Source of the DNA: a virus
Virus record (IMG/VR): IMGVR_UViG_3300020478_002014
Coordinates: 1-25,906 of that record
DNA: 25,906 bases
Strand: one strand, 5' to 3'
The position numbers were made by a program, and so were the translations under genes. Below the pieces are notes generated by a model. The model ran no database searches. It had not been told where the DNA came from and was given only the letters and a program-made list of their open reading frames with translations. Position 1 is the stretch's first letter. The number at the start of each line of letters is the position of its first letter. Shown in pieces: positions 4,280-25,836 of the stretch.

Positions 4280-5923
4280 ATGGCAGACAGCCCGATCCTC
4301 GACCACAACGGCCAACCGTTTAAGAAAAAAGAACTCAGCACCGAGATAGCAAACGCCAGCCTGACCGGCGTGCGCTCCGTCTGGAACTACGGCAGCGAAG
4401 CCGAACACCTCAGCCCCGAGCGTCTGGCCCGCATACTGCGCGATGCCGCCGAAGGCGAGGCCGATGCCTATCTCACGCTCGCCGAAGAAATGGAAGAGCG
4501 CGACCCGCACTATGGCTCAGTGTTGGGCACACGTAAGCGGGCACTGTCCGGCCTGCCGGTCATGGTCGAAGCCGCCACCGACGACACCCACGACGTCACG
4601 CTCGCAGACGCAGTCCGCGAACTGGTGCGCCGCCCCGAATTCGGCGACATGGTCGACGACCTGCTCGATGCCCTGGGCAAAGGCTACAGCGTCGTAGAAA
4701 TTAACTGGGATCTGAAACACTTACCGTGGGAACCGCGCACCCGCAACGAGCGCCAGACCAACGGCGAATGGCGCGAGCGCGAGGCCTACACCTGGCGCGA
4801 TCCGCGTTTCTTTAAATACGATCGGGAGCAGGGCCAGCAGCTGCGCTTAATCGACGAAGCCGACATGCTGAACGGCATCCCGCTGCCGCCGCATCGCTTT
4901 ATCGTGCATCGCCCGCGCCTTAAATCCGGCTTGCCGATCCGTTCTGGCCTAGCCCGTCTGGTCGCGGTTGCTTATATGTGCAAGGCCTATACCGTGACCG
5001 ACTGGATGGCCTTTGCCGAAGTGTTCGGCATGCCGCTGCGTGTGGGTCGCTATGGCCCAGGCGCAAATGAAAACGACATTAATACCCTGATCAACGCCGT
5101 GGCCAATATCGGCACCGATGCCGCTGCAGTGATTCCCGAATCAATGCGCATCGACTTCGAGGCACCCGGCAGCGCCCAGGGCGGCCCGGACATGTTCTTA
5201 AAATTGGCCGAATACCTCGACAAACAGATCAGCAAGGCGGTGCTCGGCCAGACCGCAAGCACCGAAGGCACCCCCGGCAAACTGGGCAGCGACGACGCGC
5301 AAGACGATGTGCGCATGGACATCCTCAAGTCCGACGCCCGTCAGCTCAGCAACACACTGAACAAATACCTGGTGCGTTCGTTTGTCGACCTGAACTGGGG
5401 GCCGCAGGAGCAATACCCACGCATTGAAGTGCAGGCGACCGATCCCGAAGACGTCACCGCCCTGATCGACAACGTCACAAAGTTGATCCCCTACGGCCTC
5501 AAGGTCGAGCGCAGTGTCATGGCCGACAGGCTCGGTCTGCCAGATCCGGCAGACGATGCCGAGCTGCTGCTCGCACCACAGCAGCAGGTAAACCCCGCCC
5601 CCGCACTGAATCATCAGCAGCCCTGCGGCTGCGGTCAGTATCACACCGCACTGAACCAGGACGGCGGCCAGATCAGCACCACAGACAGCGCCCTCGAACA
5701 GTTAGAGGGCGCGGCACTCAGCAACTGGCGCAGCCAGATCGACCCAGTTCTGCAGCCCATCCGCGATCTGCTCGATGCCGTCGACACCGCCGAAGAATTC
5801 GCCGCAGGCCTTGAGGATCTGCTCGACGATATGGACGACACCAACGTCGTGCGCGATCTTGCCGCCGCCATGTTCCTGGCCAATGGTGCAGGAGATGGTG
5901 CGGGCGATGGTTCTGCTGACTGA
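4280..5923 (+). CDS. Portal protein, DUF935 (Mu gp29/H-like)
   Basis: A 547-residue Mu-type portal. Diagnostic stretches include YLTLAEEMEERDPHYGSVLGTRKRA (residues 64-88), the GKGYSVVEINW segment (134-144) and DWMAFAEVFGMPLRVGRY (241-258). It forms the dodecameric ring at the capsid vertex through which DNA passes. The C-terminus carries a Cys-rich turn (PCGCGQYH, 448-455) flanked by two ALN motifs (442-444 and 457-459), then an acidic helical region and a GAGDGAGDGSAD tail. The ALN motifs resemble peptides repeated in the protease and scaffold and may be processing sites. The ribosome site AAGGAG overlaps the terminase stop. The stop overlaps the MuF start (TGATG). Confidence 0.93.
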   Translation: MADSPILDHNGQPFKKKELSTEIANASLTGVRSVWNYGSEAEHLSPERLARILRDAAEGEADAYLTLAEEMEERDPHYGSVLGTRKRALSGLPVMVEAATDDTHDVTLADAVRELVRRPEFGDMVDDLLDALGKGYSVVEINWDLKHLPWEPRTRNERQTNGEWREREAYTWRDPRFFKYDREQGQQLRLIDEADMLNGIPLPPHRFIVHRPRLKSGLPIRSGLARLVAVAYMCKAYTVTDWMAFAEVFGMPLRVGRYGPGANENDINTLINAVANIGTDAAAVIPESMRIDFEAPGSAQGGPDMFLKLAEYLDKQISKAVLGQTASTEGTPGKLGSDDAQDDVRMDILKSDARQLSNTLNKYLVRSFVDLNWGPQEQYPRIEVQATDPEDVTALIDNVTKLIPYGLKVERSVMADRLGLPDPADDAELLLAPQQQVNPAPALNHQQPCGCGQYHTALNQDGGQISTTDSALEQLEGAALSNWRSQIDPVLQPIRDLLDAVDTAEEFAAGLEDLLDDMDDTNVVRDLAAAMFLANGAGDGAGDGSAD

Positions 5924-7446
5924 TGCCTGATTATCGTTTCCCGTCCGAGCCACCCGCAGACGCCCTCAAATGGTTCCGCGCCAAAGGCTTTCAACCAGGC
6001 TTTGACTATCGCGACGTCTGGCAAAGCGAACACGCCCAGGCATTCACCGTCGCCAAAGCCATGCGCATGGACGTCCTGACCACCATTCGCAGCGCCTTCG
6101 ACGAAGCACTGGCCGAGGGCAAAACCCTGCAGCAGTTTCGTGCCGAACTCACACCCACGCTGCAGCGTCTGGGATGGTGGGGCCGCTCTGATGAAATTGA
6201 CCCGGCGACAGGCAATATCGTCGACGTCCAGCTCGGCAGCCCGCGCCGCTTAAAAACCATTTACCGCACCAACATGCGCACAGCTCGCGCCGCCGGTCAG
6301 TGGCAGCGCATCGAACGCCGCAGCATGACGCACCCATACCTGGTCTATGAACTCGGGCCGTCAGAGCAGCATCGCGTGCAACATGTCGGCTGGGCCAGGC
6401 TGATCCTGCCTGCTGATGACCCGTTCTGGTCGACCCATTACCCGCCCAATGGCTGGGGCTGTAAATGCCGCGTGCGTCAGATCACCAGACGGGAAAAAGA
6501 TCGCCTGATGAAAACCGGGCGCTATAGCGACACCGCGCCCCCGATCCGCACGACCGAATACATTAACGACCGCACCGGCGAAGCGATCCAGGTGCCCAAC
6601 GGCATCGACCCCGGCTGGGACTACAACCCCGGCCAGGCACGCGGAGCAGCTGTACAGCAGCACCTGCAGCAAACCGAGAAGGAATTCGCCACCACTATGG
6701 CGAAGCCGGTACCGGCAGAAGGCGTGCAGGTGTTCCCGTCAGATCTCACGTTCAGCACCTGTAAGCACGTCACACAAGACGGCGTGCAACAGATCCTGAC
6801 ACAGATCCCAGGGATCGCACCTCAACTTGAAAAGTTCGCCCGGTATATGGAAGCGCACCCGACTAAAACGCTCTTTTTAAAGCAGACAGAGCAGGGGCGC
6901 GGGCGCAATGCCGATAAGCTCGCCGAACCAGTCGGGCAGTTCCTCGGCATGCCGCCCCGGCAAGCGCGCAGCGCGTACTACATGCCAAATGCAAGACGAG
7001 CCAACGGCTGGACACCGCTGGTGTTCGATTATGTGGTGGTAAAAGCGAAAGCCTCAGATAAGCTGTCTAATATAGATCCTGACATCATGGCCGCCGCTGT
7101 CGACGCTGCGGCGCGTGCCCACGCGGTTGGTGATTCGTCGAGATTCTTCTCTTTACGGGCGACCTATGATGCCCTGGTCGGTGAGTCGCACGCTGGGCTG
7201 GTCAATACCTGGATACATGAAATCGGGCATCAAGTGCATACCTGGGCGGAGCTGCCACAGCCACCGACGACCAAGGCACTTACTCGGTATTCATCTGCAA
7301 ACAGCTATGAATGGCACGCTGAACACTTTACGGCTTGGCTGCTTAACCGTGAACGATTGGCGCAGTGGGATGAAGGCATCGCATTGTACTTTGATAAACT
7401 GATAGAGGATGCGATCCGATCCGATCGCAAACCACCAAACATATGA
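5923..7446 (+). CDS. F: MuF-type minor head protein fused to a metallopeptidase-like domain
   Basis: A 507-residue two-part protein. Residues 1 to about 240 are a phage Mu F-like head morphogenesis domain: FPSEPPADALKWFRAKG at the start, then IYRTNMRTARAAGQW and the hallmark PPNGWGCKCRVRQI with Cys180 and Cys182. MuF proteins sit near the portal inside the head. Residues about 265-507 are not part of that fold. They contain NTWIHEIGHQVH, an HExxH zinc motif at His432-Glu433-His436, and downstream SYEWHAEHFTAWL with Glu467 or Glu463 as third ligand. This pattern resembles gluzincins of the anthrax lethal-factor type (HExGH plus an E..AE.F helix). The 3' part of the gene uses a visibly more AT-rich codon mix. 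It is probably an injected effector or toxin domain, though processing of head proteins is possible. Confidence 0.85.
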   Translation: MPDYRFPSEPPADALKWFRAKGFQPGFDYRDVWQSEHAQAFTVAKAMRMDVLTTIRSAFDEALAEGKTLQQFRAELTPTLQRLGWWGRSDEIDPATGNIVDVQLGSPRRLKTIYRTNMRTARAAGQWQRIERRSMTHPYLVYELGPSEQHRVQHVGWARLILPADDPFWSTHYPPNGWGCKCRVRQITRREKDRLMKTGRYSDTAPPIRTTEYINDRTGEAIQVPNGIDPGWDYNPGQARGAAVQQHLQQTEKEFATTMAKPVPAEGVQVFPSDLTFSTCKHVTQDGVQQILTQIPGIAPQLEKFARYMEAHPTKTLFLKQTEQGRGRNADKLAEPVGQFLGMPPRQARSAYYMPNARRANGWTPLVFDYVVVKAKASDKLSNIDPDIMAAAVDAAARAHAVGDSSRFFSLRATYDALVGESHAGLVNTWIHEIGHQVHTWAELPQPPTTKALTRYSSANSYEWHAEHFTAWLLNRERLAQWDEGIALYFDKLIEDAIRSDRKPPNI

Positions 7447-7673
7447 CACCAACACTCGACGAACTGATCAAACGCAACCAGGCAAGCGCACCCAGCCCCG
7501 CATTCACCAAAGCGCAGCAACTGCTGCGCGCCGATCCAGCGCCTGCAGACCTCGAAGATCAACTGCTGACACTAGAACAGCAAGTCCGCCCGAACGAGCG
7601 CGATCAGTTTGGTGATCTCTGGTCGACCTTCATGCTCACGCACACGCCCACGCTACCCTCTGACGATCAATAA
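7443..7673 (+). CDS. Small unknown protein downstream of MuF
   Basis: A 76-residue acidic protein with no family I recognise. Its ATG overlaps the MuF stop codon (ATGA), so the two are probably co-translated. The sequence is mostly helical, with SPAFTKAQQLLR, DLEDQLLTLEQQV and DQFGDLWSTFML, and has a Pro-rich acidic end. There are no signal peptide, membrane segment or cysteines. Its base composition is phage-like, unlike the genes after it. Two readings are open: a conserved small head-related protein, or a partner or inhibitor of the metallopeptidase-like domain encoded immediately upstream. It is the last gene before the accessory block. Confidence 0.6.
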   Translation: MTPTLDELIKRNQASAPSPAFTKAQQLLRADPAPADLEDQLLTLEQQVRPNERDQFGDLWSTFMLTHTPTLPSDDQ

Positions 7674-7678
7674 AACCT

Positions 7679-7700
7679 AAGCCTCTGTGAGGGTCTTTCT
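7679..7700 (+). terminator. Weak terminator-like hairpin after the MuF pair
   Basis: The arms AAG-CCTC (7679-7685) and GAGG-(GT)-CTT (7689-7697) can pair around a 3-base TGT loop, with a 2-base bulge, and run into a T-rich end (TTTCT). The stem is short and interrupted, so it is at best a weak intrinsic terminator. It sits just after the last phage-like gene and before the accessory genes. Confidence 0.25.
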
Positions 7701-7745
7701 GTGCTCTTATGGCACGGTGGCATGGAATAAAGGCGAAAATGGCTA

Positions 7746-7759
7746 TTAAACGCGTTTAA
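7746..7759. promoter_or_regulatory. 14-bp perfect palindrome, possible operator
   Basis: TTAAACGCGTTTAA is a perfect palindrome within the 218-bp non-coding gap 7674-7891, which otherwise holds no ORF I can support. It lies about 130 bases upstream of the first accessory gene. Its position and symmetry suit a binding site for a dimeric regulator, but no regulator gene is visible in the window. It could also be chance in an AT-rich stretch. Confidence 0.35.
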
Positions 7760-7824
7760 ACGGCAATTTACGGTACTGATCGGCAGGTTTGAGTGTTGTA
7801 ACTGTAAAGAAGACTGTCTGGCCA

Positions 7825-7853
7825 TTGTTTCTATGACCAGTGTTGTGTAAAAC
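7825..7853 (+). promoter_or_regulatory. Weak sigma70-like promoter candidate for the accessory genes
   Basis: TTGTTT (7825-7830) and TAAAAC (7848-7853) are separated by 17 bases and lie about 40 bases upstream of the ATG at 7892. Each box matches the consensus only partly. The support is mainly positional: this is the largest gap in the window and it precedes genes of different composition. Confidence 0.2.
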
Positions 7854-7891
7854 AAGCGGCGACTGACTGAGTACTACCTTAAGGGAATAAG

Positions 7892-8803
7892 ATGGCTTCA
7901 CATACAACTGATAACCCAATCGTCCGTGTAGATATGATCTTAGATGGAGAGGCCTACAAAGATCATGAAATACAAATTTTCACATTTGCACGAGCACTCA
8001 GGGATCTCGGGGATCTACTCTACGACTCAAGTGAAGAGTTAAATGGTGATAGAGATGCGATATCAGTGAAGGTGAACTCCGAGTTTATTGAAGGGTCTTT
8101 CGGGTTTGAAGTACTTGTAGAGCTTCTTCCTCACGCCACTAACGTCGTCGAGTATTTGGGGTTGGCTGGTGCCGCTGGCAGTAGTGCCGGAGGCCTGTTT
8201 GGGGTGCTGAAGTGGCTGAAGGGAGAAAAAATACAGTCAATATCTGAACTAACTGATGAGAAGAGCGAAAAGCGTCAAAGTGTGATCACTGATAAAAAAG
8301 GACGCACACTGAAGGTGCCGGAGCAGGTGGCGCGCCTAGCCGGGAGTCGTACCGTGCGCCGGAAGACTGATGACCTGATCAGGGGAGCTCTATTGACTGA
8401 GGGCACCTCAATACTCAAGTTTAAAGCGAAAAAATCAGGTGATGAAATAGAAGGTGAGAATAACCTGCCACCTGATCTGGTTCTCGATCATGAAGATACG
8501 GTCTCTTTCGCGGCCTTACGTCAAAAAGAGCTCTTAGACGAAAGTTATTCGTCGGAAGAGACTACTGTGAAGTTCATTTCCGCTACAATTAAAGGCAGGT
8601 CTGGCTGGAAAGTTGAAAGGTTGGGTAAAGAATATCCAGTGAAGATGGAAGATGAGCTATTCATAGAGAGACTTAAGTACTCAGATGATGCTCAAGTGTT
8701 TGGTAGGTCGTTCCATGTTCGTTTTGGTACTAGAAAAAGAATTAGTGGCGGCAAGGAATCCGTCACGTATGAAATTGAGAAGGTATTCTACGAAAAAAAG
8801 TAG
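7892..8803 (+). CDS. Unknown 303-residue accessory protein
   Basis: I do not recognise a named family. Residues 10-80 (VRVDMILDGEAYKDHEIQIF, then FARALRDLGDLL, then EELNGDRDAISVKV and FIEGSFGFEV) look like a compact alpha/beta domain. A Gly/Ala-rich hydrophobic segment follows (LGLAGAAGSSAGGLFGVLKWL, about 89-109), which could enter or touch a membrane. The rest is charged, with a likely beta-rich C-terminal domain (225-300). There is no signal peptide. The start follows an AAGGGA ribosome site. Codon use is clearly more AT-rich than in the flanking head genes, which suggests separate acquisition. It appears to be the first gene of a three-gene unit with two small hydrophobic proteins. A phage-exclusion or host-modifying cargo role is possible but not shown. 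Confidence 0.75.
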   Translation: MASHTTDNPIVRVDMILDGEAYKDHEIQIFTFARALRDLGDLLYDSSEELNGDRDAISVKVNSEFIEGSFGFEVLVELLPHATNVVEYLGLAGAAGSSAGGLFGVLKWLKGEKIQSISELTDEKSEKRQSVITDKKGRTLKVPEQVARLAGSRTVRRKTDDLIRGALLTEGTSILKFKAKKSGDEIEGENNLPPDLVLDHEDTVSFAALRQKELLDESYSSEETTVKFISATIKGRSGWKVERLGKEYPVKMEDELFIERLKYSDDAQVFGRSFHVRFGTRKRISGGKESVTYEIEKVFYEKK

Positions 8804-8824
8804 GTTGTTAGAGGAGGCGATGGT

Positions 8825-9058
8825 ATGGAAAATGTACTGCTTATAGCCAGTGTTATTATTGTTTTCTTTGCTAGTTTCTACCTCGTGGCGAAGATAGTTT
8901 TCTTCTGCCTTACATTCTTTTTGGGAACCAATTACACGCTAGTCATACACGACGAGAATGGTAAGACAAAAAAAATCAGACGACGGATAACGAATGATGC
9001 TGAGTTTGATAGTTTTGTAGACGAGTACGTAAATAAGGAAGGAAAGCTAATAGAATGA
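8825..9058 (+). CDS. Small membrane protein of the accessory unit
   Basis: A 77-residue protein of no recognised family. Residues 4-34 are almost entirely hydrophobic (VLLIASVIIVFFASFYLVAK, then IVFFCLTFFLG), enough for one long or two tightly packed membrane helices. The remaining 40 residues are polar, with a basic patch (KTKKIRRR) and an acidic end, so they probably face the cytoplasm. A strong GGAGG ribosome site (8813-8817) precedes the ATG. The gene is AT-rich like its upstream neighbour. Its stop overlaps the next ATG. Confidence 0.7.
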   Translation: MENVLLIASVIIVFFASFYLVAKIVFFCLTFFLGTNYTLVIHDENGKTKKIRRRITNDAEFDSFVDEYVNKEGKLIE

Positions 9059-9402
9059 CCCAAGAAAGTAGCTTGGCGAAGTCTGCAGGCAAAGGAACTG
9101 CTCGCGTAGCGATTGCTAGCGCTTTTGCCGCTCTCTATGCTTATTTACTTCAGGGTAATCTTGATGCCAAAGAGCTTATTACTCCCGCCGCATCTGCGCT
9201 AGGCATCATTACAAGTGAAATAGGCAATTGGTGTAACAAAGCATTTAGTGTAGATCCACGGAGGGTTAAGTTGGGAGTAATCGCTAGCTTGAGGCTTCGA
9301 CGTTTAAAAAAGCTGATGTCTGACCCCGGTGTTAATGATGCAACCAGAGAGAAGCTACAAGAAAAGTACCAGAAAATAATTTTGGTAAAAGCAGATCTCT
9401 AA
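9055..9402 (+). CDS. Unknown 115-residue accessory protein
   Basis: No family is recognised. The N-terminal half has two moderately hydrophobic helices (about residues 17-33, RVAIASAFAALYAYLLQ, and 41-55, ELITPAASALGIITS). The C-terminal half is basic and helical (RRVKLGVIASLRLRRLKKLM), then KLQEKYQKI. The protein may be membrane-associated. Its ATG overlaps the stop of the small membrane protein (ATGA), so the two are translationally coupled and probably act together. Composition is AT-rich, as for the rest of this unit. Confidence 0.7.
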   Translation: MTQESSLAKSAGKGTARVAIASAFAALYAYLLQGNLDAKELITPAASALGIITSEIGNWCNKAFSVDPRRVKLGVIASLRLRRLKKLMSDPGVNDATREKLQEKYQKIILVKADL

Positions 9403-9420
9403 CTTTAAATAAGGGAGTAG

Positions 9421-9939
9421 ATGTTGAAAGGATTCTCACTCACTCAACTGCTGGGCATGATTCTAATCGTCGCTGCCGTCGCCATCTTCGCCGGTATTCC
9501 AGCGCTCCAGGACATAGCCGAAAAGCCCGATCCGGTCACACCCGCAATCACAACTACCGCCACCAGTGATGACGAAGTCACGCAGCTGAATACCGCCGAT
9601 CTGTTACTGCAGGAATGCCCCGGCCTGGTAACGCACGGCGCAGACATCAAAGAGATCCGCATGACCCAGGGTGCCGCCAGTCTGACAGCCCAGCGCGAAA
9701 AACAATGGCAAACAGCGGTCAAAGCCACCGCGATCGTTAATGAAACAGTCACCAGCGCCCCGCAGCAATCAGCCGATCATCATTGCGAATACGAAGTTGG
9801 TATGACGCCGCTCGGCGAATACGGTTTTTACTGGAGCAAGGCGGTGTGTGCAGACCTCTGCGGTGTAAACGCCAATGGTCAGCGGTACGGCTACCACCTA
9901 ATCATGCACAGCATTGCGAGTGAAGAGGCCGCGCAATGA
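9421..9939 (+). CDS. Unknown membrane-anchored protein, cysteine-containing
   Basis: A 172-residue protein with a single N-terminal hydrophobic segment (residues 8-28, TQLLGMILIVAAVAIFAGIPA), a Thr/Asp-rich linker and a C-terminal domain carrying Cys66, Cys122, Cys143 and Cys147. It is most likely anchored in the inner membrane with a disulfide-bearing periplasmic domain. I do not recognise a family. The ribosome site AAGGGAG directly precedes the ATG. Unlike the three genes before it, the base composition is phage-like. Its stop overlaps the start of the next gene, which also encodes a membrane-anchored protein. Superinfection exclusion or envelope modification fits the topology but is only inference. 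Confidence 0.7.
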   Translation: MLKGFSLTQLLGMILIVAAVAIFAGIPALQDIAEKPDPVTPAITTTATSDDEVTQLNTADLLLQECPGLVTHGADIKEIRMTQGAASLTAQREKQWQTAVKATAIVNETVTSAPQQSADHHCEYEVGMTPLGEYGFYWSKAVCADLCGVNANGQRYGYHLIMHSIASEEAAQ

Positions 9940-10574
9940 CGGCGGAAGTGGAAGCAGCTAAAGAATTCGCGTTTAGTCTTAATGATCTATTGACCGGGCT
10001 TGCGGTACTTCTATCTTTGATTGCGATTTATGTTTCGCACTTTATGCGCTGGAGTAAAATAACTATCGCTCCAGCATTGACTCCCGAATCATTCACAACG
10101 GTGGGAAAGACTAAAGCTAGGTTCGCGGATAATTCTCAAGAAATTACAAAAGCCACGCTAGCCGTGAATTATGATCTGCTGGCATTTGCAACGGGAAATG
10201 CCTCTGTATTATTAGAATCTGTATCTCTGGTGCCGGACGACGATGCTATAGACAGGAGACGCTGGCCCGGCTGCAAAATCTCTGAAAGTTTAACGGCGGA
10301 CTCTGTGTCTGTTTTTAAAATGCAGATAAGGGGTGACGATATAAGTTCAAGACCGGAGCTACACGTCACCGACTTAAATGATGAGGTGTATGAATTTACG
10401 TTTAATGCAGATATATACACGCCTGACGGTCATTGCAAAAAAGTGGTGATACCGGTGAAAGTTTTTTTAATGAAGACAGGAAATGTCGAAAAAGTAGAGT
10501 GCTCCCGTTTTACTTTAAAATACCGCTCGCCGATACTGCCGCCCGGTCTTAAAGAATTCTTTACCGGCAAGTAA
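9936..10574 (+). CDS. Unknown 212-residue protein with N-terminal membrane helix
   Basis: No family is recognised. One membrane helix (about residues 18-36, LLTGLAVLLSLIAIYVSHF) is followed by a roughly 175-residue domain that looks mainly beta-stranded, with alternating strands such as ATLAVNYDLLAF, ASVLLESVSLVP and VYEFTFNADIYTP. It has no lipobox or clear cleavage site. The ATG overlaps the previous stop (ATGA). The gene is AT-richer than the head genes. It is the last gene of the accessory block, 56 bases before the protease gene. Confidence 0.7.
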   Translation: MTAEVEAAKEFAFSLNDLLTGLAVLLSLIAIYVSHFMRWSKITIAPALTPESFTTVGKTKARFADNSQEITKATLAVNYDLLAFATGNASVLLESVSLVPDDDAIDRRRWPGCKISESLTADSVSVFKMQIRGDDISSRPELHVTDLNDEVYEFTFNADIYTPDGHCKKVVIPVKVFLMKTGNVEKVECSRFTLKYRSPILPPGLKEFFTGK

Positions 10575-10608
10575 CCCACCGGAACGCACACCCCCGCCAT
10601 CCCTGAAC

Positions 10609-10630
10609 GTGGCCAGAACATACTGGCCAC
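10609..10630 (+). promoter_or_regulatory. Hairpin abutting the protease start codon
   Basis: GTGGCCAG (10609-10616) and CTGGCCAC (10623-10630) are perfect 8-bp inverted arms around a 6-base AACATA loop. The 3' arm ends on the base before the protease ATG at 10631. No purine-rich Shine-Dalgarno is present in the usual window; the hairpin occupies it. A translational control structure, an operator, or a processing or termination signal closing the accessory unit are all possible. Confidence 0.5.
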
Positions 10631-11680
10631 ATGAAAACACCAAACGCCCTTTATACCGCGCTCAACTCAGAAGCCGCACCGCAGATGGCGGAACAGCCGC
10701 ACCTGCTCGATGCGCTCTGCTTTGAACTGTCAGACGACGGCAGCATCCCCGAATGGGTGCCGCTGATCCCTGTCGGCACATTCACGGGCCGCGACGGGCG
10801 CACCTGGCACAACAATCAGCCAGACAATGTCATCCAGCTGACCACTGCCAGCAACCGCGAGCAGCCCCTCGACTGGGAGCACAGCACCGAATTGAAACGC
10901 CCCAAAGGCGAAGAAGCCCCAGCGGCTGGCTGGTTTACCGACTACCGCATCAACAATGGTCACATCGAGGGCCGCCTCGAATTTACCCCGCGCGGTCTGA
11001 AGTCCGTTCAGAACCGCGAATACCGCTATCTGTCGCCCGTGTTTCGCTACGACAGCGCAGGCAACGTCTACGACATCCGCAGCGCGGGCCTGACCAATAT
11101 GCACAACCTGCTGCTGCCTGCTCTGAATCAGGAGCAACACGATCACGCCCACTTAACCCCAGATCAGGAGTCCACCGACATGGATCTCAAAGCACTGCTG
11201 GCCGCAATTGCGACCGCCCTCAATACTGAAATCACCAGCCCAGAACAGGCGCTCGACGCAATCAAACAGCAGGCGACCGATCTGCAGACCGCGCTCAACA
11301 CCGAACGCCAGCCGGATCTGGCGTCCTATGTGCCGGTCGATACCCACAACCAGGCGCTGCAGCGTGCCCAGAACGCCGAGCAGGAACTCAGCAACCATCT
11401 AGCCACTGCACGCAATGCCGAGATCGACACCGCCATCGACGACGCCGTTGCTGCAGGCAAGATCGCTCCAAGCAATAAAGAGTTTTACCGCACCGCCTGC
11501 AACAGCGAAGACGGCCTGGCGAACTTCCGCAAGTTCGTCGCCAGCGCGCCAGTGATCGCCCCCGAGTCCAACCTCGACGGCAAAAAGGTCACAAACCACA
11601 AAACCGCACTCAACAGCGAAGAGCAGGCGCTGGCCGACATGTTCGGCAACACCGCCGAAGATCTCGCCAAGTACGCATAA
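10631..11680 (+). CDS. I: Head maturation protease with C-terminal scaffold (Mu I-like)
   Basis: A 349-residue Mu-type protease-scaffold. The N-terminal protease spans residues 20 to about 165: WVPLIPVGTFTGRDGRTW, then PLDWEHST with His84, and YRYLSPVF with Ser135 as candidate catalytic residues. The C-terminal part from about residue 184 is a helical scaffold rich in Ala, Gln and Asp. A peptide of the form TALN(S/T)E recurs at residues 9-14, 195-200, 220-225 and 325-330, with variants at 164-168 and 288-293. These may be self-cleavage sites. The ATG has no obvious Shine-Dalgarno and is preceded by a hairpin; no in-frame start lies between it and the stop codon at 10604. The protease would process scaffold and portal during head maturation. 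Confidence 0.9.
   Translation: MKTPNALYTALNSEAAPQMAEQPHLLDALCFELSDDGSIPEWVPLIPVGTFTGRDGRTWHNNQPDNVIQLTTASNREQPLDWEHSTELKRPKGEEAPAAGWFTDYRINNGHIEGRLEFTPRGLKSVQNREYRYLSPVFRYDSAGNVYDIRSAGLTNMHNLLLPALNQEQHDHAHLTPDQESTDMDLKALLAAIATALNTEITSPEQALDAIKQQATDLQTALNTERQPDLASYVPVDTHNQALQRAQNAEQELSNHLATARNAEIDTAIDDAVAAGKIAPSNKEFYRTACNSEDGLANFRKFVASAPVIAPESNLDGKKVTNHKTALNSEEQALADMFGNTAEDLAKYA
11180..11680 (+). CDS. Z: Nested in-frame scaffold protein (Mu Z-like)
   Basis: An internal ATG at 11180 lies in the same frame as the protease (its Met184) and is preceded by AGGAG at 11166-11170, nine bases away. It would yield a 166-residue protein beginning MDLKALLAAIATALNTE, consisting only of the helical scaffold part. 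Mu makes its scaffold in the same way, from a gene nested in phase in the 3' end of the protease gene. The ribosome site here is much better than that of the full-length protease, which fits a scaffold needed in far greater amounts. Confidence 0.75.
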   Translation: MDLKALLAAIATALNTEITSPEQALDAIKQQATDLQTALNTERQPDLASYVPVDTHNQALQRAQNAEQELSNHLATARNAEIDTAIDDAVAAGKIAPSNKEFYRTACNSEDGLANFRKFVASAPVIAPESNLDGKKVTNHKTALNSEEQALADMFGNTAEDLAKYA

Positions 11681-23645: not shown

Positions 23646-24368
23646 ATGGACTACCCAGTCAGCGACGAATTCGCAAAGCTGCACAACGGCAAGTTCACCG
23701 ACGGTGATCCCCAGAACAACATTCCGCCCAGTAAGAATTCAGCCACAAATATAAATACGCTATACGATGAACTGCTGGCGACGCTCAGCAGTGCAGGTAT
23801 AACCCCCGACGAAAACAACACAACACAGCTGGCCCAGGCCGTCGCGCAACTGATAACCAACGCTACAGCCGATAGCCAGCGGCGTGCCCAGTACACAGCG
23901 CAAGTAACAGGGTCAAGTTACGTTGAGTTTGTAATACCGTCCTGGGCCAGAGTCGTGACCTTAGATTTTACCGACCTGTCATTGGATAACAGTGGCGATT
24001 ACCCATTGCTTTACTTAGGGACAAGTGCAGGCATTGAGACAAACGGTTATGCAGCCTACAAACTTGAATTTTTTGAAGATCTAAACGGTAACGCGATCGC
24101 AAACGAGGAGCTGGGTACCGAACCTAAGTTGGTCAGGCAGAATCTCTATGACTCTGAGTCAGTATCTGGTTCGGCAAGGCTGGCGCTGGTTGATCCTGGT
24201 TCAGCCGCCTGGGTAATGAATGCTCAGATATTCAGACGAGGCGACGGCGTTGCAGGGAGCATGCACTACAATAAATCGCTGGCCGATGCGCTGGCGGTGG
24301 TAAGGCTTCAGACGAATAAAGGAATATTCGACAGCGGTTATGTCGGCGTGTCGATTGAGGGGTTGTGA
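23646..24368 (+). CDS. Putative tail fibre protein, short
   Basis: A 240-residue protein. Residues 1-75 (MDYPVSDEFAKLHNGKFTDG, then DPQNNIPPSKNSATNINTLYDELLATL, then GITPDENNTTQLAQAVAQLI) are the common tail-fibre start module NGKFTDGDP...TPDE..TQL. The remainder (about 85-240) is a beta-rich domain without recognised match, with clearly lower GC than the baseplate genes. It may be the receptor-binding part. The gene lies between gp47 and gp48, where Mu has no fibre gene. It overlaps the run-up of the gp48-like gene, which starts three bases after its stop. Confidence 0.75.
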   Translation: MDYPVSDEFAKLHNGKFTDGDPQNNIPPSKNSATNINTLYDELLATLSSAGITPDENNTTQLAQAVAQLITNATADSQRRAQYTAQVTGSSYVEFVIPSWARVVTLDFTDLSLDNSGDYPLLYLGTSAGIETNGYAAYKLEFFEDLNGNAIANEELGTEPKLVRQNLYDSESVSGSARLALVDPGSAAWVMNAQIFRRGDGVAGSMHYNKSLADALAVVRLQTNKGIFDSGYVGVSIEGL

Positions 24369-24370
24369 TA

Positions 24371-24964
24371 ATGAACTACACGGCGGCCCTGCTATCTCTG
24401 ATGCCTCGTGGCCTTATATGGTCACGATCACCCGACGGCGCGCTCGCAAAGCTGATGGCTGGCCTTGCGGTCGAGCTGCAACGCATCGACGATCGCGGCG
24501 GCGACCTGCTGGCCGAGTCGATAACAACGACGATAAGCGAGACCCTGGCGAACTGGGAGGCCGATCTAGGTCTAAGGAATCAACCTAGTGCTATAGATCA
24601 ACGCCTGGCAGCTGTGCGGCAAAAATACCGTTTGTACGGCAGCCAAAGCCGAGAATTTTTTCAGGCACTGGTCGAAGCTTTTGGCGTTACCGCCGAAATT
24701 CAGGAATACAAAGAAAGCACCTTTGGCGGTGACTTTGGCGAGTATTTCAGGGGACGTGACTGGGCATTTGTCGTCGATTTTGTAGTCGCCGAAGAAACAA
24801 CCGACGACCAGATAGACGTCCTTTCTGTCACCATTCACACATACTTGCACGCGCACAAAATCGCAATCGTGCGTAGAGAACTCAGTATCCCATATGCGCT
24901 CACTGACGATGGGGCTTTCTTGGCCGATGGTGGGCGTTACCTAATCAGCACTCCGAAGGAATAA
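24371..24964 (+). CDS. Baseplate-fibre connector (Mu gp48-like, YmfQ/DUF2313)
   Basis: A 197-residue protein of the gp48/YmfQ family. The N-terminus MNYTAALLSLMPRGLIWSRSPDG and the following LAKLMAGLAVELQRIDDRGGDLL, then ETLANWEADLGL (about residues 59-70) with QRLAAVRQKY are characteristic. The ATG at 24371 is preferred to a GTG at 24365 because GAGGGG at 24357-24362 is eight bases from the ATG. The family belongs to the baseplate edge where fibres attach. GC drops toward the 3' half. Confidence 0.88.
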   Translation: MNYTAALLSLMPRGLIWSRSPDGALAKLMAGLAVELQRIDDRGGDLLAESITTTISETLANWEADLGLRNQPSAIDQRLAAVRQKYRLYGSQSREFFQALVEAFGVTAEIQEYKESTFGGDFGEYFRGRDWAFVVDFVVAEETTDDQIDVLSVTIHTYLHAHKIAIVRRELSIPYALTDDGAFLADGGRYLISTPKE

Positions 24965-24969
24965 CAACC

Positions 24970-25836
24970 ATGACAACGACCATTGATCTGAGCAATGTCC
25001 CATTAGTAACTCTGGATCAGGCAGATATGATTCTTGCTAAAAATTCAGCCGATGAATATGTCTGGGTTGATCCTGCGAATATTGCTCAAAACTCAGGGAT
25101 TCCGTTTAATCAATATCTTGATCACCATCCAGATATAGTTGCCTATTGGTGGCCAGATCAGTGCGATGCGGGGCAGCTGCATAAGGCGGCATTACGATGC
25201 ACTGATTTTAATTCGCTCCAGGTTCCTATACTGCAGCAACGCGAGGGCGTTCGTGTATATGCGGCAGAGTCTGCTACTAATGAAAATTTAAGATTTTCGA
25301 GCACGCAAACCAATCAGGTAACTATCGAACGTACAGAGGTTGCGTTCGTTTATGTTGATCCAGCATTCGCAAGAAGCCCATATGATAGCTGTCAGGTTCA
25401 TTATTGTGCCTCATCAGCTAACTACGGAGGCTTTAGAATCACTTATATAAATGACTCGAATTCTGTCTGGGACATCGCAGCTGCAGCATATCCCTATAAC
25501 TCAGTTAGCCTTACGACTTCGCTCGGTGTAGATCAGCTACCCGCAGGCTGGGTGGCGATATACAGCACCCTTACTGAAGACCAAGCAGCTGAAAGCGGTA
25601 CCTTGATTGTTTCAGCGTTGGGGTTGGAAGCTGCCCCAACTGCCGGAGGTCGTGACGGTCATCTTACCAGGCCTCTCAGTACGTTTCGTATCTCTCCCAC
25701 TAGTTCGGGGGATGCCATTACATTTGCTGGGGCGGGCGTTTATCCTGCGTTTTTTTGTAAGTCACGAGTAGTCCTGTCTGAGGCTGACGTGCATGATTTG
25801 TTTTCTCGATTTAAAGCGCATTATGGCATTGAGTGA
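24970..25836 (+). CDS. Putative receptor-binding or tail fibre protein
   Basis: A 288-residue protein after gp48, the place of the Mu fibre gene S. The start (TIDLSNVPLVTLDQADMILA, then KNSADEYVWVDPANIAQ) is a short attachment-like region. The rest looks like a jelly-roll or lectin-like domain (VAYWWPDQCDAGQLHKAALR, then EVAFVYVDPAFARSPYDSCQVHY and STFRISPTSSGDAITFAGAG), ending in a short helix EADVHDLFSRFKAHYG. The last motif resembles the helix that ends many concanavalin-type phage tail proteins. Much shorter than Mu S and AT-richer than the baseplate genes. Sugar binding is inference. Confidence 0.65.
   Translation: MTTTIDLSNVPLVTLDQADMILAKNSADEYVWVDPANIAQNSGIPFNQYLDHHPDIVAYWWPDQCDAGQLHKAALRCTDFNSLQVPILQQREGVRVYAAESATNENLRFSSTQTNQVTIERTEVAFVYVDPAFARSPYDSCQVHYCASSANYGGFRITYINDSNSVWDIAAAAYPYNSVSLTTSLGVDQLPAGWVAIYSTLTEDQAAESGTLIVSALGLEAAPTAGGRDGHLTRPLSTFRISPTSSGDAITFAGAGVYPAFFCKSRVVLSEADVHDLFSRFKAHYGIE

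Follow-up and report, generated by a model that had tools for sequence, protein, structure and literature searches.

A three-gene, low-GC cargo operon in a Mu-like prophage encodes a relative of MichelleMyBell gp29 and is a candidate anti-phage system

The gp29-gp30 pair of mycobacteriophage MichelleMyBell (MMB), listed in DefenseFinder as MMB_gp29_gp30, comprises a toxic protein and a putative membrane protein that together help to defend against lytic phages (PMC11856565). An MMB prophage reduces the plating of phage Tweety by 4-5 logs (PMC8549241), and the MMB and Phrann systems are both described as typical of abortive infection, with adsorption and injection proceeding normally (PMC6426606). 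MMB gp30 has 67 aa and two transmembrane (TM) segments, and its gene overlaps gp29 by 41 nt. The Phrann gp29-gp30 pair occupies the same cluster N niche under the same gene numbers and is easily confused with that of MMB; its gp29 is a putative (p)ppGpp synthetase (PMC9262239). A 2023 survey found the DefenseFinder system gp29-gp30 only in Actinobacteria and described it as a (p)ppGpp synthetase (PMC10482375), and it was therefore probably the Phrann system that was surveyed.

Here we analyse a three-gene unit, hereafter the trio, in a 25,906-nucleotide virus record (IMG/VR IMGVR_UViG_3300020478_002014), the whole of which we refer to as the window. The earlier note on this DNA recognised no known system in the trio, a statement that has to be revised, as MMB gp29-gp30 and the PADLOC candidate PDC-S42 are both known and related to it. 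The family of the main protein and a two-gene relative have already been described; for the three-gene form we found no description. Nor did the literature searched, outside of which lie most subscription journals, yield the spread of the trio through prophages and plasmids of Gammaproteobacteria, the merging of the four names under which the family is catalogued, or the alternation of a clamp-binding-like peptide with membrane partners that is set out below.

A low-GC operon in a variable slot between the F and I genes

The features of the window that are relevant to this analysis are as follows.

5923-7446: Mu-F-like gene, 507 aa
7443..7673, plus strand: 76-aa ORF, prophage flank and left border of the cargo slot
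7674..7891, plus strand: intergenic region upstream of the trio, 218 bp, GC 0.445
7892..8803, plus strand: gene 1, 303 aa, LAPAL_fam / PDC-S42 / phrog_3243, relative of MMB gp29
8531..8800, plus strand: segment of gene 1 (residues 214-303) with a predicted SSB/RPA-like OB fold
8825..9058, plus strand: gene 2, 77 aa, TM protein
9055..9402, plus strand: gene 3, 115 aa, hydrophobic hairpin
9421..9939, plus strand: 172-aa ORF with an N-terminal hydrophobic segment, phage-like GC3 of 0.63, outside the trio
9936..10574, plus strand: 212-aa ORF, membrane-anchored, outside the trio
10631-11680: I-like protease/scaffold gene, 349 aa
12166-13059: major capsid gene

The names F, I and capsid were assigned from gene order, from similarity to the genes of related prophages and from the first reading of the sequence, and the related Mu-like prophages were located by searching with the I protein of the window. 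Gene order in the window is F, the 76-aa ORF, the trio, the 172-aa ORF, the 212-aa ORF, I, a 133-aa ORF and major capsid.

The trio forms an operon between the F and I genes of a Mu-like prophage. Its GC content is low, at 0.439, compared to a window mean of 0.585 and a minimum of 0.492 among all other 1511-nt stretches of the window, and its GC3 of 0.38-0.44 contrasts with the 0.62-0.75 found in the flanking head genes. Ribosome-binding-like sequences precede all three ORFs. Exactly 218 bp lie between the 76-aa ORF, which ends at 7673, and gene 1. Genes 1 and 2 are separated by 21 nt, and genes 2 and 3 share 4 nt (ATGA), an overlap that recurs at 11 of the 12 trio loci measured. A sigma-70 consensus scan returned no convincing promoter within the 218 bp, with three promoter-like sites in the whole stretch against 3.4 expected. 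The description given in the earlier note, of three genes with their own upstream region that are AT-rich compared with their flanks, translationally coupled at two of the genes and inserted into the F-to-I gene order, is borne out by these data, with the addition that this interval also includes the 172- and 212-aa ORFs and that its content differs between related prophages.

More broadly, Mu-like prophages of this clade carry varying cargo between F and I (7674-10630 in the window), and the trio is one example of what this slot can contain. We regard the trio as cargo because sister prophages keep the flanks, with 66-68% identity in I and 77-79% in capsid, but change the slot. Sister phage L075 is 75% identical to the window in F, 57% in the 76-aa ORF, 68% in I and 79% in capsid, and its slot is occupied by a strongly diverged trio whose genes 1 and 2 are only ~26% identical to those of the window, and to which gene 3 of the window gave no significant match. 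In DNA alignments of these two phages the flanks align at 70-72% and the trio fails to align. L087, a prophage from the same genus as the host of the window, retains I (66%) and capsid (77%) and has a different pair of genes (334 and 202 aa) in the slot, which is occupied by still other genes in L088, L089 and L091. The trio is missing from L087, L088 and L089, all of which keep the flanking head genes. In L034, a more distant Mu-like prophage from the same bacterial family, a trio is found between a G-like gene and I.

The remaining ORFs of the interval differ in their conservation. The 172-aa ORF is kept in sister prophages with the trio (L075, 47%) and without it (L087, 27%). The 212-aa ORF is probably a further cargo gene, because its GC3 is low (0.425) and it is only 24% identical in L075, although I is 68% identical there. 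None of the other slot occupants (334 + 202 aa in L087, 232 aa in L088 and 333 aa in L091) matches Pfam, and they could represent additional defence genes. A DUF2971 protein (L034:11370-12233) lies in the same slot of L034, adjoining the trio of that prophage. Separately, the right end of the window (24365-25836) has a low GC content of 0.45-0.53 and possibly contains more cargo.

The gene 1 protein and its membrane partners

Gene 1 belongs to a family that is catalogued separately in several databases. Its product matches NCBIfam NF053583 (LAPAL_fam) with 148.8 bits (2e-43), above the curated cut-off of 60, PHROG 3243 at 1.2e-41, and the PADLOC PDC-S42 profile PDLC05015, for which there is no curated cut-off, at 1.5e-26 over residues 14-299. 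The connection to MMB gp29 came by way of two observations: gene 1 of the trio in Vibrio phage PE001 was labelled 'MMB_gp29_gp30__gp29' by the annotators of that phage, and gene 1 of the window has a significant structural match to BFVD A0A142K7V1, a 184-aa protein of mycobacteriophage Pipsqueaks that is perhaps a shortened relative. MMB gp29 (310 aa) itself matches the same three families (NF053583, 2.5e-53; PDC-S42, 1.6e-16; phrog_3243, 7.3e-81), and aligns with the gene 1 family alignment over 261 columns (hhalign 97.8%, E 1e-12). These profile comparisons indicate that gene 1 is homologous to MMB gp29 over nearly its full length, with gp29 being only ~16% identical to the family profile and forming a long branch on the tree. 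A family search gave no match between gene 1 and (p)ppGpp synthetases, and a PDB sequence search was negative. NuDC, TauE, SroA and YccS each appeared as a single weak family match and were judged to be chance.

An AlphaFold model of gene 1 built with 16 sequences (pLDDT 84, pTM 0.65) consists of an N-terminal beta-alpha-beta-beta unit, a weakly predicted Gly/Ala-rich hydrophobic segment, a second alpha/beta part and an OB fold that begins at residue 214. The hydrophobic segment, which the earlier note had already picked out in an otherwise soluble protein, spans residues ~88-108 of the 303. When the OB part was compared by VIA-align, Rim1/mtSSB was matched with a Z score of 8.0 and an rmsd of 2.5 over 80 residues and RPA70 with a Z score of 7.4, with Teb1 and ExoVII also recovered. 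We claim only the fold class for this predicted C-terminal OB fold because a Z score of 8 is a level reached by common arrangements and by models without true relatives; a Foldseek search of the gene 1 model against the PDB gave no significant match. From the model we infer that the OB fold may bind nucleic acid.

The product of gene 2 has an N-terminal TM segment (residues 4-22), another, weaker stretch of hydrophobic residues (24-42) and a short soluble C-terminal part, and one strong N-terminal TM segment followed by a soluble tail is found in gene 2 of every full trio. Gene 3 encodes two N-terminal hydrophobic helices that form a hairpin, followed by a C-terminal helical hairpin, and all full trios share this hydrophobic hairpin and helical tail. 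The hairpin is weakest in the window, where hydropathy analysis gives one segment of 1.41 (Kyte-Doolittle) and the model (P0003), itself weak at pLDDT 71 and pTM 0.37, gives two helices. Profiles of genes 2 and 3 showed no similarity to MMB gp30 by hhalign, a comparison in which the 67 aa of gp30 are too few for a strong test. Gene 3 of the trio in E. coli UPEC85 (L048:7138-7533) is named 'globin family protein' in RefSeq, which is probably a misannotation given that it is a hydrophobic hairpin protein.

Genomic contexts of the trio and of solitary relatives

The trio occurs, with gene order and direction preserved, in about eight different contexts (the window and loci L034, L075, L033, L026, L025/L039, L040/L041, L042, L043, L044/L045, L048, L067 and L047), with gene 1 being ~17-26% identical to the copy in the window. 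Besides the window, L034 and L075 are Mu-like prophages. In a Proteus prophage (L025/L039) the trio lies immediately ahead of holin and endolysin genes, and in a lambda-like prophage of E. coli UPEC85 (L048) it is flanked by a lysis protein on one side and the terminase gene nohD on the other. Further copies are on IMG/VR contigs (L040/L041, L042, L043 and L044/L045), those of L042, L044 and L045 being located right after lysis genes, and another is inside a prophage tail operon (L067). The remaining contexts are the tailless Vibrio phage PE001 (L026), where the trio adjoins the integrase gene, a chromosomal locus (L033) and a conjugative plasmid of Shewanella baltica (L047), where its neighbours are type I restriction-modification (RM), PIN and Fic genes and the vicinity is free of virion genes. 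The earlier note had proposed a survey of whether the three genes travel together, and they do so in many unrelated prophages and also on plasmids. A damaged version is present on a Vibrio tapetis plasmid (L046:6643-7778), where gene 1 is split, gene 2 is present and an IS6 transposase has replaced gene 3. Because of the plasmid, chromosomal and tailless-phage contexts we doubt the equivalog label of NF053583, 'putative phage structural protein', which looks wrong.

Several searches were uninformative. Searching phage records by tblastn with genes 1, 2 and 3 gave nothing usable because of sequence divergence, and scans of genome contigs found no relative. A gene 3 profile run against 398 genomes recovered only the window and one weak match; it also missed the trio of genome G568 in the same set, and therefore says little about the occurrence of gene 3 without gene 1.

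Along with these trios, we identified solitary relatives of gene 1, which are chromosomal and have no membrane-protein gene directly downstream. They match the PADLOC profiles PDLC05015-05016 with E-values down to 1e-113. Two distant members, L069 and L070, lie inside type I RM loci, and a third, L035, lies beside a GajA-like ATPase and a UvrD-like helicase that we named by reading their sequences. Close to the C-terminus, the solitary proteins carry peptides such as KQMSLF, KQLKLPF, RQIDLPF, QADLF and QIKLF, which resemble the beta sliding-clamp binding motif QL[S/D]LF. Using the revised clamp-binding consensus quoted in PMC13254535, we found a match in 6/15 solitary proteins and in 0/14 proteins with membrane partners, with 5 matches among 582 other ORF tails used as a control. 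A pattern written after we had seen the tails matched 13/15 and 0/14, respectively, the latter set including MMB gp29, and 7 of the control tails. Gene 1 of the window likewise ends without such a peptide. The solitary LAPAL/PDC-S42 proteins with clamp-like ends are L014, L015, L016, L035, L050, L063, L065, L066, L069, L070, L071, L019 and L020.

On an unrooted tree the members with membrane partners lie between two clearly separated groups of solitary members. The distribution fits a lineage that lost the clamp peptide and acquired membrane partners, with limited independence: the family members are related, such that a Fisher p value overstates the number of independent observations, and the two labels need two changes on the tree. 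We tentatively suggest that LAPAL/PDC-S42 may constitute one OB-fold defence family with two placements, in which solitary members would be brought to the sliding clamp by a C-terminal peptide of the QxxLF/QxxLPF type and prophage and plasmid members to the inner membrane by two co-encoded proteins. The same sensor could then watch either replicating DNA or the site of phage DNA entry.

A likely anti-phage role and comparison with known systems

We consider it likely that the trio is a prophage-borne anti-phage operon providing heterotypic defence, of the same kind as MMB gp29-gp30 but with three genes and anchored at the membrane, because gene 1 shares its family with MMB gp29, which is reported to protect lysogens. 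The conserved order of the trio, its cargo status, its location next to type I RM, PIN and Fic genes on the L047 plasmid and the defence neighbourhoods of the distant solitary relatives L069, L070 and L035 are consistent with this assignment. The comparison that the earlier note drew with exclusion and defence layouts, and its view of the trio as cargo, both gain from the range of contexts and from the gp29 homology. Counted against a defence role are the lack of detectable gp30 similarity in genes 2 and 3, the single membrane protein of the MMB system, the distance and long branch of MMB gp29 noted above, and the NCBIfam label.

The trio would probably act by abortive infection. As we envisage it, gene 1 would be kept inactive in a complex with the two small membrane proteins at the inner membrane. 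The trigger for its release or activation would be a product or intermediate of the incoming phage, plausibly a nucleic acid or nucleoprotein to which the OB fold binds, after which the cell would cease to support phage growth. The killing step may be an action of freed gene 1 on DNA or replication, or a disturbance of the membrane by the membrane subunits.

A more specific version of the defence reading, in which gene 1 is a sensor that activates gene 2/3 membrane proteins as an ion channel and so depolarises the cell, appears somewhat doubtful. The pairing of a soluble protein with membrane proteins recalls lambda RexAB and Sbash gp30/gp31, for which such a model has been proposed (PMC6426596), but gene 1 has no homology to RexA (hhalign 0.2%), and the membrane proteins of those systems, RexB and Sbash gp31, each contain four TM helices, compared to the one TM segment plus hairpin predicted here by hydropathy. 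In the absence of a RexA homologue and of a four-TM, RexB-like protein we rejected membership of the Rex family, though the trio may work like Rex.

It is unlikely that the trio is primarily a toxin-antitoxin or addiction module for prophage or plasmid maintenance, with gene 1 as the toxin and the membrane proteins as its inhibitors. Such a function is suggested by the toxicity described for MMB gp29 (PMC11856565) and by the plasmid copies, and is compatible with defence; conserved co-occurrence of the three genes could also serve plasmid or prophage maintenance. However, there is no short antitoxin-like gene upstream, and the trio is mostly phage cargo rather than a plasmid-maintenance gene.

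Superinfection exclusion at entry, in which the two membrane proteins and cytoplasmic gene 1 would block DNA injection by other phages at the inner membrane, is in our view quite unlikely. Every trio encodes two small inner-membrane proteins, the trio of the window is prophage cargo, and a membrane protein of the cluster N phage Charlie does block injection (PMC6426606); the MMB gp29 system, however, lets adsorption and injection proceed (PMC6426606), and an entry block has no need for a conserved 303-aa cytoplasmic OB-fold protein.

A virion or head-assembly role, suggested by the NF053583 name and by the position of the trio in the head-gene operons of the window and L034 and the tail operon of L067, is very improbable, as the trio also occurs on a conjugative plasmid without nearby virion genes and next to the integrase of a tailless phage, has solitary relatives in chromosomes and RM loci, is absent from L087, L088 and L089 and has a low GC3 unlike that of head genes. 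The family is thus neither restricted to virion clusters nor retained throughout the close relatives of the phage. Virion structural homologues, which the earlier note had named as evidence that would speak against its reading, are represented only by this name, and the contexts contradict it.

Collectively, the data presented here suggest that PDC-S42, the LAPAL_fam 'structural protein', PHROG 3243 and MMB gp29, which had been catalogued separately and without explanation, are one family, and call a misleading database name into question. Because Proteus, E. coli, Vibrio and Shewanella carry the three-gene form, it is testable in ordinary laboratory hosts, and the predicted OB fold and the clamp-binding-like peptide, the latter present only where membrane partners are absent, provide two handles on mechanism.

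With respect to the databases, gene 1 matches PADLOC PDC-S42, which is listed as a single-gene candidate, whereas here it is part of a conserved three-gene unit, and the solitary PDC-S42 members carry a C-terminal clamp-binding-like peptide that gene 1 of the trio lacks. Gene 1 likewise exceeds the cut-off of LAPAL_fam, whose name denotes a phage structural protein, but the contexts oppose this. The trio resembles lambda RexAB and Sbash gp30/gp31 in being prophage cargo that encodes a cytoplasmic protein together with one or more membrane proteins, and differs in that RexA is not homologous to gene 1 and in the four-TM membrane subunit of those systems (PMC6426596). The trio resembles MMB gp29-gp30 in several respects: both have a main protein of the gp29 family with at least one small membrane protein encoded directly downstream, both have overlapping genes, and gp30 is a small two-TM protein much as gene 3 has a hydrophobic hairpin. 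MMB gp29-gp30 is cargo beside lysis genes, as are the enterobacterial trios, and the trio of the window, in its variable F-to-I slot, is also accessory cargo of a temperate phage. In contrast to the MMB pair, the trio has three genes rather than two, with an additional one-TM gene 2 and a cytoplasmic helical tail on gene 3, and its examples come from Gammaproteobacteria.
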